Made by a program: the position numbers and the translations under genes. Positions 11,401-15,728 of a stretch of 64,000 bases of DNA are shown in pieces. Each line of letters opens with the position of its first letter. The first letter of the stretch is position 1. The notes beneath the pieces are model-generated. The model was not told where the DNA came from. It ran no database searches and saw only the letters and a program-made list of their open reading frames with translations. This stretch comes from Diadema setosum (lineage: Eukaryota; Echinodermata; Echinoidea; Diadematoida; Diadematidae): NCBI RefSeq assembly GCF_964275005.1, contig NC_092688.1, forward strand, positions 47,547,748 through 47,611,747. Reading direction: 5' to 3'.

Positions 11401-14400
11401 GATCGCGAATTGAACAACACAAAATAATGTCACATGATCTTAATCGCATTGAATTTACACACAGGCATCAGCAAATTTAAGATAGCCTCGGTGTCAAATT
11501 ACAAACACAACATTTCCAGTCAGTGTCTATGAGCTCTTCAATTGCAAAAATATCACTGTGAGAAAATCCCAGCAGCATAAATTGTTCTTGAAGTTCATCA
11601 ATTCTGTGGATGACATGCTGAAACAAAATATCTAGTGATGCAGATAGTGTGGCAAGGAGTTCCAGTAGATGCCGAGCTTACCACTTGATGTGCGCCTTCA
11701 AGGTGATACATCACTGTCATAGCAAAGACAAAGACAAAGAACATTCCAACCTTCCTCTTGTTGGACCATAACCTACAAAAGATAAAATGAGATACATAAT
11801 AATCTATTTTCATTTTCACTGTATAGATCTGTAGAGAGTTCTAATGTGTGAGTTAGGGATAGAAACAACCAATGTAAAATGTAAAAACCAATGGAAAACA
11901 ACCAATGTTTAAAAATGTTTAAAAATCTGTATAATCAATGGTAAGTATCAATAGATATACAAAATGTGAATAGTTATAAGAAATTTTCTCAGAGAATAAA
12001 ACTTCTACAGTTGTGGTTTATTGGAAAAAAAAAACAGTGATATCTCCATATATCTTAGGTCTTAAAATTGGAAGTTTTTATATGGTAGGATGTTCTGTGA
12101 TATAACTGACCTACACTGTACACATATGCATCAAATGTGATAAACTCAAACATATCTGAAAAATCTTCTCCCAATCATATGGTAAATAATACCATTAATG
12201 AACTGACAACTTCAATCTAATCATTCTCTAATATAAGACATTAGCAGTAAAATTAAGACTTGCCAATTTGATGAGAATAAGATGATAATTTCTGTAGGAC
12301 CTGCTTGGTCAAACATACTCTGTGCTCGAAATACCCACAGACCATCAGCAATCTGCTGCCATGTCCTTCCCACTGGCCAGAATAACATTTTATTACTCAC
12401 TTGCACCGCCTCAAAAAAGTGTCCTTGACCCAAATTTGATGAAATTTGGGGTTTGCATACTGTACCTGTGTGTCCATCCTACAATCATAATGTACAGCTC
12501 GAGAAGGAAGTACTGTAGAGTTGTGAGAGGTTTGCGGAAGAGGGTCACTTTGGCTCGCTCCTCTCGATCTCTTCGCCTCGTCTCCCTCAGAGCCTCGTGT
12601 TCCTCTGGCGTGGACGGTGCATCCTCATTGGTGGGCGTCCCCGAGCCCCTGATCAGCTGACCAATCCCAGGATTCAAGTTGTTCTGCTGGAACATGGCGT
12701 CAGCATCCTTCAGACGCAGTACCTTAAAGAACAACAGCCAATCATGGGCAATAAATAAAATTATTTTTAAAAATAGCCTTTCTGCTTTTTTAAACACGTT
12801 GCGGACAGACTGATTTTGCTACAACACGCATTTCCCATACAAGACACCTGCCCAAGTATTAGCTCGGGACTCGTCCTCAATAGGTTTTAAAGGGGTCCTC
12901 AAAGTACAGCATATCTTTCGTTCACCATGGCAATCCCTAAAACATGTTCATAATATGCTTAAACACGTCTGCCTGATCTAGCCACACCTTTTGAATAACC
13001 CTGCTAACAGGTATCGACTCCAGCTACTTGTACTTAGTAAAAATAAAAAACTAAATAAATAAATAAAATAAAATCTCTGAAAGGCCTAGGCCTGTAATAT
13101 ATCAAAATAAATAAATGAAACGTCTTTACTCTAACTGGTCTTGGATAACTCTAACCCCGGAGTGGCGGGGCGCTATCAACCAGTAACACTAACAGCCCGT
13201 TACGTGTTGGGGTTGCTGGTGCGGTTAGGATAACTCTACGAGTCTAATCATCAGTCCGGATCAGACATTTTGACTGGAAAAAAAAAAAAAAAAATACACG
13301 TTTTCAACTTACTGGGCATCATCGTAGGTAATTTATTTAATTAAGATCATAACAGTATCTGTAACAGTCTAGACTCTACTACAAAGTACATCTGACGGTG
13401 GCCTGTACTGTTTTTTTTCTTTTTGCCGTTTTCACTTGCCCTGGCCTGGCAGCTAGCACAGAGTCAGACAGTACGTAGACTCGGAGTAGGGTTCTTTAAT
13501 ATCTAGATCTTACTGTCTCTAGTATGGAGTAGTATCACCAAGCGTTGTGGGACCGGACAGGTTCACAATGTGGGACTGGACGCGAATTGTAAGTGCGTGT
13601 AAGTGCATCTGTAATGAAAATGACGCACCCAGGAATAAAACCAACCCTGCCTGGGAATGGAATTCCCATGCAGATCTACAAGATGCAATGCAAAAATGTA
13701 AGTAACTGTCTCATAATTTCATAAAATATGATAATTCTTTCATTTTCTCACCTAAAAAACATATTTTCTTGCTAATGACCCTAATGTATGTAATTTATAC
13801 CTCCCGCTGGCTGCGATGCATGTCGTTCTCACTGCCAGTATTATATCAGAAGTGAAAGTCTCACAAGGTAGGTGTTATGAGTGAATTAGGCCAGTTCGAT
13901 CGAATGTTCGATAGCCTTGATTGTACGGCGAGAATGTAAACACCGTGCACGCTCGCTCCCCATATATTTCCCATACAAAATCAACACGTGCACAACTCTC
14001 TTTGATACATTCGTACATGGAGTCACTTTGAAGGGGAAAATCCAACGATTTAGCAGGTTAATTCTCACGCCGTTTTCAGAGTATGTTGTCTAACGTTATG
14101 CACTTGTCAATGTAATGACGCACCCCACTACCCCCGGACATGGGTGCGTCATGGTCATTTTTTGACTGACCACACGGGGTTTTTGACGGACACCAGAGTC
14201 ACTTTTTTGACGGACAAAAGGCTGCAAGTGACGAACACCACAGTCACTTTTTTGACGGACAACACGTTGAAAGTGACGAACACCTCGGTCACTTTTTTGA
14301 CGGACATCCTCGGTACATTTGACGCACCCCCGAAAATACTGAAACGATTTTTGCATACGTTTTATTCAAGCAATTTCATTTTCTTTTGGTTCGTAAGCAT

Positions 14401-15728
14401 AATTTGTAAAAGTTTCGGCAAGTTTCCCTTACCCTGGCCCTGCAAGCACCGTACCGTCATTCACCGTACATCACGCTGCTGCTACGATATTCCGTACAGT
14501 AGTATGTATTCTGTGCATGCAATCCATCCATACGACAATCACATGTGTGCAGATGCGCTGTGTGTGCGCGGCCATTGCTAGTCCGGTGGATGCATACTGC
14601 AGCGCAGGTACACACCACGCCACGGCATTCCCGCGAGTATAAACAGCCCAGTCGCTGTACGTAGAGATTCGCACAGCCTAAACAAGTCCCTGGTTTGACT
14701 TGAGATTGAGTATGCGTGATTTCATGGGTTTGTTGGATAGAAAATGTGAGGAGAAAGGGTGGCTTTTAAATTGTTTGCTTGCCAGATTCTGGCAAGCATT
14801 TTTCCCTCTTATTCCAAAATGCTTCCCGACTTTGATTTTCACTTGCCGCGGGAAAACGCTCACTGTAATTTCACTCGTGGTACGCGTATACGGTATACTG
14901 GTAGCGTGCAAAAATGCGTGCAGTTTTCCATAGGCTGTAGCCAAGTGACGCACCCCTCGGTTCAGAATAATGCGTGTTATTTTCCATAGCCAAGTGACGT
15001 ACCATGACGCACCCCTCGGTCAAAAATTTGACCGACAATGATGGGATTTTGACGCACCCCTCGGTCAAAAATTTGACGGACAAAGCTGGTAAAATGACGG
15101 ACACCTAGGTCACAAATTTGACGGACCAAACGAGGAAATGACGCACCCATGTCCGGGGGTAGTGGGGTGAGTCATTACATTGACAAGTGCATTAGTATAT
15201 GAGGAGTCTATATCAAGTCTTTGAGGTAAAGAAGGGTGCATATTCTATGTAAAATAGCTAACGTTAAGTTTTCACGCGCGAACTTAAGTGTCCGGAAACA
15301 CAACCCCCATCCTGATCATACTACTCTAGCAGTATTCTATTTAAGGTTTCTAGATCTATTTCTAAATTCTAGTAAGACTACCTCACTACCTCACTACCCA
15401 CCACAGCTCAGCGGCTACACCGTTTATCCCATGCCATAGAATTCTAAATACACTACTCACATCTAACCCCTGTTAGTGTTAGCACTAGGTAGTAGCACTA
15501 GCAGCACTGCCAGCAAACCGTAGCTAGCTTCGTGTGGGTGGGCACGATGTTCGTGCCAGCATAATACATCCACGTTGTATTTTACTTATTTATAGTAGGT
15601 GCCACAGTCGTTGACTGTCGGCTGTGCTATATACTCACCAATTGATCTTTGATGCCGTGTGCCCTTAAACCTCGTCGCTTCAGTTCCTCCTTTAACTGGG
15701 GAACTTTTAATTTAGAGTAATCGTCCAT
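2440..15728 (-). CDS. VMP1: Vacuole membrane protein 1 (VMP1) with an N-terminal SAP motif, 13 exons, complete
   Basis: VMP1 is a multispanning ER protein of the VTT (VMP1/TMEM41/TVP38, DedA-like) family, known for lipid scrambling and autophagosome formation. Coding exons from the start: 15728-15639, 12722-12466, 11772-11682, 11074-10964, 10100-10021, 9736-9640, 9024-8973, 8150-8068, 6900-6820, 6170-6054, 4374-4313, 3460-3355, 2577-2440. Phases join cleanly to 454 residues (human about 406). Residues 184 to 409 match human VMP1 closely, for example [57 protein letters not shown] and the KLHH motif. Residues 4-41 form a SAP-like helix-turn-helix absent from human VMP1; exon 1 encodes 30 residues of it and exon 2 the rest. 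The chosen ATG has G at -3 and +4. The first intron (2.9 kb) is the largest. All junctions are GT-AG. Start choice is the least certain part. Confidence 0.95.
4918..5706. mobile_element. Element with inverted TTATACCCCCGCCAAAC ends and about five internal tandem units
   Basis: A 17-bp inverted end (4918-4934 and 5690-5706) brackets four to five diverged units of about 155 bp. Each unit has GCCGTTACCATGGCAACG, a GTCTTGCACATCTACAACC-like block and AACTGAGGAAGTAGTTCGCG. A GTCGCTACAGCGAC hairpin lies just outside the left end. No coding potential. In VMP1 intron 10. Confidence 0.7.
5908..6063 (-). repeat. Tandem repeat that duplicates the VMP1 exon 10 splice donor (five copies)
   Basis: Five tandem units with steps of 33, 29, 33 and 33 bp start at the real exon 10 donor and run into intron 10. 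Each carries ATACAG|GTAAG followed by a CCATAGGCTATGCTTTA-like body. Potential exon ends on the minus strand fall at 6054 (the one matching the protein family), 6021, 5992, 5959 and 5926. Use of the second donor would add 33 nt in frame (11 codons without a stop). The third shifts the frame because its unit lacks four bases. Confidence 0.9.
6316..6475. mobile_element. MITE with CTGTAAAA ends, copy 2
   Basis: Ends TACTATAAAACATATTTTCG and CTCGTTTTACAGTA, with inner CGCGGCATGAAATTTTCGCG. In VMP1 intron 9. Confidence 0.7.
7586..7975. repeat. (GAT/GGT)n microsatellite in VMP1 intron 8
   Basis: About 390 bp of GATGATGGTGAT-type triplets. All reading frames are low-complexity, so the long open frames here are not genes. 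Confidence 0.9.
8735..8913. mobile_element. pogo/Tigger-like MITE, degraded copy
   Basis: CAGTGCACTCCTGTT at the left, a worn GAGTCACCTG at the right, and TA on both sides. The inner block CCAGTCCCAAGGACT is shared with 45426-45612. In VMP1 intron 7. Confidence 0.65.
10198..10344. mobile_element. Short foldback MITE in VMP1 intron 4
   Basis: Arms with CGTCTGTTGAGTATGAGAAG and GGGCGTTAAG on the left face their near-perfect inverse on the right, around a loop of about 30 bp. Confidence 0.75.
10503..10798. mobile_element. Probable MITE with GGGTGTGTTT ends
   Basis: GGGTGTGTTTATGC at the left is mirrored by AACACAAACACACCC at the right. The inside has no coding potential. A related-looking block (AAACGC, CATAAACACAGC) lies near 34500-34650. 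Confidence 0.5.
12794..12886. mobile_element. Small TTAA-flanked MITE (GGACG ends), copy 1
   Basis: A 93-bp element with inverted ends (CACGTTGCGGAC, GTCCTCAATAGGT) between TTAA sites. It is similar, in inverted orientation, to 52505-52589: both hold TGCTACAACA, GCATTTCCCATA and CACCTGCCC. Confidence 0.65.
14099..15191. mobile_element. Non-autonomous Harbinger-like element with 54-bp terminal inverted repeats
   Basis: The ends match each other over 54 bp with one mismatch (TGCACTTGTCAATGTAATGA at the left, repeated inverted at the right) and are flanked by TTA at 14096-14098 and 15192-15194. A 3-bp TWA duplication is typical of PIF/Harbinger. The inside is packed with short related motifs (TTTTTTGACGGACA, AAGTGACGAACACC, TGACGCACCCCTCGGTC) near both ends, plus a unique core. 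No transposase is coded. It lies in VMP1 intron 1. Confidence 0.85.

Follow-up and report, generated by a model that had tools for sequence, protein, structure and literature searches.

VMP1 (vacuole membrane protein 1) has been described, in part of one report, as a protein of the endoplasmic reticulum (ER) that is essential for autophagy and is also required for the release of lipoproteins (PMC6748824), and in part of another it is grouped with TMEM41B as an ER scramblase of the DedA/VTT superfamily, the two proteins being described as acting together with lipid-transfer proteins, among them ATG2 and VPS13D (PMC12887103). In this work we analyzed a stretch of 64,000 nucleotides of the sea urchin Diadema setosum (C4:47547748-47611747, hereafter the window), in which a VMP1 gene is encoded on the minus strand; the predicted urchin protein shows the same conserved membrane part as described VMP1, and very probably carries in addition an N-terminal SAP motif, fused to it by a short first coding exon.

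The SAP domain (PF02037) is found in E1B-AP5/hnRNPUL1, Tho1, Hcc-1/SARNP and MKL1, which are soluble nuclear or cytoplasmic proteins. The urchin motif is the same one by Pfam and by a sequence search of the PDB; in contrast, it is placed on a membrane protein. A similar layout, in which a small helical chromatin- or DNA-associated module is attached to a membrane protein, is known from inner nuclear membrane proteins with a HeH/LEM domain (Src1/Heh1, MAN1, LEM2), whose fungal HeH domain is described, in part of one report, as able to interact directly with DNA (PMC4810098). The membrane part of the urchin protein is, however, an unrelated scramblase, and the HeH/LEM profile (PF12949) gave 14.9 bits against a cut-off of 28.9; because the cut-off was not reached, we use HeH/LEM as an analogy only and do not propose membership. 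No description of a SAP domain on VMP1 or TMEM41B was found in a body of 5.39 million open-access papers, which includes neither subscription papers nor sequence databases; the same literature yielded no paper on VMP1 orthologs of sea urchin or amphioxus, and a looser search of it brought up no SAP domain on ER membrane proteins. Scans of virus and prokaryote contig collections, which are uninformative on animals, confirmed no relative. With regard to these papers, we regard SAP-VMP1 as a known protein in a new domain variant. What positions such scramblases at particular sites of the ER is, to our knowledge, an open question; a natural fusion with a module of nucleic-acid type would point to the place and the partners of VMP1 action in this lineage, and could give a clue to a factor recruited in trans by other animals.

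The VMP1 gene was traced through 13 coding exons that encode 454 residues and end in a stop codon at 2440; the frame is open throughout and all 12 introns have GT-AG borders. Residues 88-448 of the model align to a provisional, not database-derived, human VMP1 sequence with 225 of 361 positions identical (62%) and 286 of 361 similar (79%). The VTT profile (PF09335) gave 26.7 bits (E 8.3e-6) for the urchin protein, below its cut-off of 33.9; this cut-off is not decisive for the VMP1 branch, since the provisional human VMP1 falls under it as well (30.9 bits). A hydropathy scan, in which no more than two segments exceeded 1.6, was set aside for the question of topology. The coding part of exon 1 (15639-15728, minus strand) consists of an ATG and 29 further codons, encodes most of the SAP motif, and ends at a GTGAGT donor in phase 0; its ATG is the first in frame past an upstream stop and has G at both -3 and +4. 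Intron 1 (12723-15638, minus strand; 2916 bp, phase 0) has GT-AG borders, and exon 2 (12466-12722, minus strand) resumes at phase 0 with VLRLKDAD, the final eight residues of the SAP match, followed by a linker of approximately 45 residues and by the conserved start of VMP1, where it aligns to the provisional human sequence. The exon coordinates, the strand, the phase-0 intron and the frame open through exon 2 are as an earlier note on this DNA had given them, judging from the sequence and the gene model.

In the 116-residue product of exons 1 and 2, the SAP profile of Pfam (cut-off 23.9 bits) matched with 46.4 bits (E 2.8e-12), covering residues 3-38 and profile positions 1-36 of 37; the motif itself is accordingly the one proposed in the earlier note, which had it extend over residues 4-41, an extent that did not hold. 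The note had also proposed that the intron splits the motif and that exon 2 completes it, and this is borne out by the rise from 38.7 bits for exon 1 by itself to 46.4 bits for the joined exons; exon 2 by itself matched no Pfam family at E up to 10. In the full protein the match scored 43.7 bits. The provisional human VMP1 sequence gave no SAP match with Pfam at E up to 1. A single weak match, below the cut-off, was obtained with NCBIfam.

The nearest solved structures in the PDB sequence search were E1B-55kDa-associated protein 5 (hnRNPUL1), Tho1, Hcc-1 and MKL1, and we take the matched chains to be SAP domains. With the full protein as query, seven PDB sequences were matched at E up to 1, six of them on the SAP part; a glycoside hydrolase match to part of the membrane region (E 0.093) was taken as chance. 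Chance similarity was rejected for the SAP match of exon 1 by a six-frame control, in which a local profile built from five PDB SAP sequences was run over the 2138 segments of at least 20 amino acids in the window: exon 1 was the sole strong match, with an E value of 1.7e-10, the runner-up reached 0.41, and the probability of a chance match was negligible. A scaffold misjoin or an assembly gap at the locus is less likely, because the window contains no Ns and its position, at 47.5 Mb, is deep within one long contig. What the genomic sequence shows is the SAP motif, a reading frame that is complete for VMP1, and a consistent predicted splice in phase 0.

We propose that a normal first coding exon would supply the SAP motif, and that the linker of approximately 45 residues would connect it with the conserved scramblase of the ER. 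The N-terminus of VMP1 faces the cytosol. If this also applies to the urchin protein, the SAP arm would lie on the cytosolic side, possibly in the nucleoplasm at the nuclear envelope, and arm and linker would be within reach of RNA or ribonucleoproteins (RNPs) at the ER, or of chromatin at the nuclear envelope. There the basic residues R18, R19, R22 and K27 of the arm might contact RNA, DNA or a partner RNP, and part of the scramblase pool could thereby be placed at chromatin or at ER-bound RNA. Taken as one statement, in which the fusion carries most of the weight, a SAP fusion with nucleic-acid tethering is on balance a probable explanation of the locus; the tethering considered separately is tentative. 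More speculative still is the broader notion that an animal lineage has a nucleic-acid-binding arm built into its ER lipid scramblase, and that this arm would anchor phospholipid scrambling, and perhaps the growth of autophagosomes or of the nuclear membrane, at chromatin or ER-bound RNA.

The putative arm is plausible as a nucleic-acid- or protein-binding one, and the two roles are about equally open. The fusion may therefore be real while the partner of SAP is a protein, for instance an autophagy or lipid-transfer factor; this reading, which shares the fusion with the one preferred here and does not exclude it, is a serious possibility, if short of probable. SAP-like helical modules are able to bind proteins. 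The closest solved SAP relatives, in contrast, belong to proteins that are nucleic-acid-associated or nuclear, which says little for a motif of 36 residues. On the side of a protein partner, VMP1 is described as acting with ATG2 and VPS13D in the part of the literature already mentioned (PMC12887103).

The SAP-VMP1 architecture advanced in the earlier note is well supported by the sequence; support for the splice is less strong. Exon 1 was joined in turn to each of the 877 downstream AGs in the window. When 14 of the 15 top-ranking acceptors under the local profile were rescored with the Pfam SAP model (the acceptor at 8018 was left out), the join at 12722 was the best with 49.7 bits, and the next, with 45.9 bits, lies within exon 2. 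Several results weigh against the fusion as we read it. Under the local profile the 12722 join scored 41.7 bits, compared with 38.0 for exon 1 alone, and was tied in 12th to 15th place of 877. With a simple acceptor matrix, which was built from the gene's 11 other acceptors and favours them, the acceptor of exon 2 (TTCTTTAAG), a weak site with AAG, scored 5.3 and these 11 scored 7.8-15.8. Of the 189 AGs in the interval that starts at exon 1 and closes with exon 2, the 12722 site ranked 12th and five exceed 7.8. The structure predicted without an alignment for exon 1 alone, which lacks the part of the motif beyond the intron, consisted of one helix at residues 9-18, with a mean predicted local distance difference test (pLDDT) score of 79.5 and a predicted template modelling (pTM) score of 0.36. 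Finally, the codon of Met40 (12693-12695, minus strand), read from the sequence, could start a shorter product devoid of SAP. Because the exon 2 acceptor is weak, the join rests on SAP continuity and homology, and the splice signal adds little; on these grounds we infer that the phase-0 splice is used in transcripts.

These observations bear on a second alternative, namely that the SAP exon is confined to an alternative transcript and that VMP1 is mainly made with a short N-terminus as in human, from a start at Met40 or from an unseen first exon. It would fit with the in-frame ATG at 12695-12693 in exon 2, whose frame is open upstream to 12818, with the weak exon 2 acceptor and the higher-scoring AGs elsewhere in intron 1, and with the lack of SAP in the provisional human VMP1 sequence. 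However, the SAP motif is completed, and scores higher, with the residues that directly precede Met40, which is unexpected for untranslated sequence, and we regard this alternative as unlikely.

That exon 1 is part of a different gene, such as a mobile element or the gene of some nuclear protein that contains SAP, and lies upstream of VMP1 by accident is highly improbable: the genome does hold at least 42 SAP matches, among them repeated ones in long frames that resemble mobile elements, but exon 1 has an ATG past an in-frame stop and a GTGAGT donor, its motif is completed in phase by VMP1 exon 2, no other gene was recognised between the two exons, and its identity to nine other genomic SAP places is at most 17/33, so that it is no recent copy of those nine.

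The SAP matches just mentioned come from an exon-by-exon search of the genome assembly (912.7 Mb, 102 contigs), in which the exon of the window was tenth by score with 38.8 bits. The other matches numbered 41, of which 28 were scanned with the local profile, eight as given by the search and 20 retrieved by position, and 13 were not fetched; nine of the 28 (at least 26 bits) were compared with the VMP1 motif and the remaining 19 (23 bits or less) were dropped. The highest identity was reached by the best three of the nine. An origin of exon 1 by recent copying from some other SAP exon is rejected for these nine places only, and no donor gene can be named because the best identity among them is 17/33. 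One score, 34.7 bits, is shared by 10 of the at least 42 matches, and seven of these 10 lie in open frames of 1451-1474 residues (e.g. L014, C3:40406000-40411000); this set has the look of a SAP-carrying gene that is repeated and perhaps mobile. Another short SAP peptide recurs at six places in frames of 49 residues (L010-L012, L016-L018).

Intron 1 contains an element of approximately 1.1 kb (14098-15192) with terminal inverted repeats of 55 bp that are 98% complementary and with internal tandem repeats of 45 bp; it has the appearance of a non-autonomous DNA transposon. Three frames of intron 1 reach 90 codons, all of them overlapping the element, and none was matched by Pfam at an E value of 0.1 or lower. 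A further element (15981-16514) has perfect inverted ends of 18 bp (TACAGTGCACTCCCGTTA) and ends approximately 250 bp upstream of the SAP exon ATG; it presumably resembles Tigger-type elements. As a promoter hint, the CpG content of the region ahead of exon 1 was considered and set aside as non-discriminating, given that 65 of 634 windows of the scan reach the observed/expected ratio of 15400-15999 and that nearby transposon-like stretches are CpG-rich.

The remaining exons of the VMP1 gene model, all on the minus strand, are exon 3 (11682-11772), exon 4 (10964-11074), exon 5 (10021-10100), exon 6 (9640-9736), exon 7 (8973-9024), exon 8 (8068-8150), exon 9 (6820-6900), exon 10 (6054-6170), exon 11 (4313-4374), exon 12 (3355-3460) and exon 13, which includes the stop codon (2440-2577). 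The donor of exon 10 (6054) is located within a tandem array of units of approximately 33 bp (window positions 5909-6064), in which CAGGTAAG occurs five times (6056, 6023, 5994, 5961, 5928), making up five tandem candidate 5' splice sites. On read-through beyond the first of these donors, the frame stays open for approximately two units before a stop.

Elsewhere in the window, a reverse transcriptase fragment is found at 19982-20566 (RVT_1, 67.2 bits). Minus-strand frames within 25808-36386 are alike in pairs, those at approximately 25.8 and 33.5 kb and those at approximately 28.1 and 36.1 kb, and this arrangement suggests a tandem duplicated gene; when three of the frames were examined with Pfam, two were without match and one weakly resembled a FAD-dependent oxidoreductase (13.6 bits, under the cut-off). 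A C-terminal coding stretch of TMEM132 is present on the minus strand at 43555-44814 (Pfam TMEM132_C, 71.3 bits).

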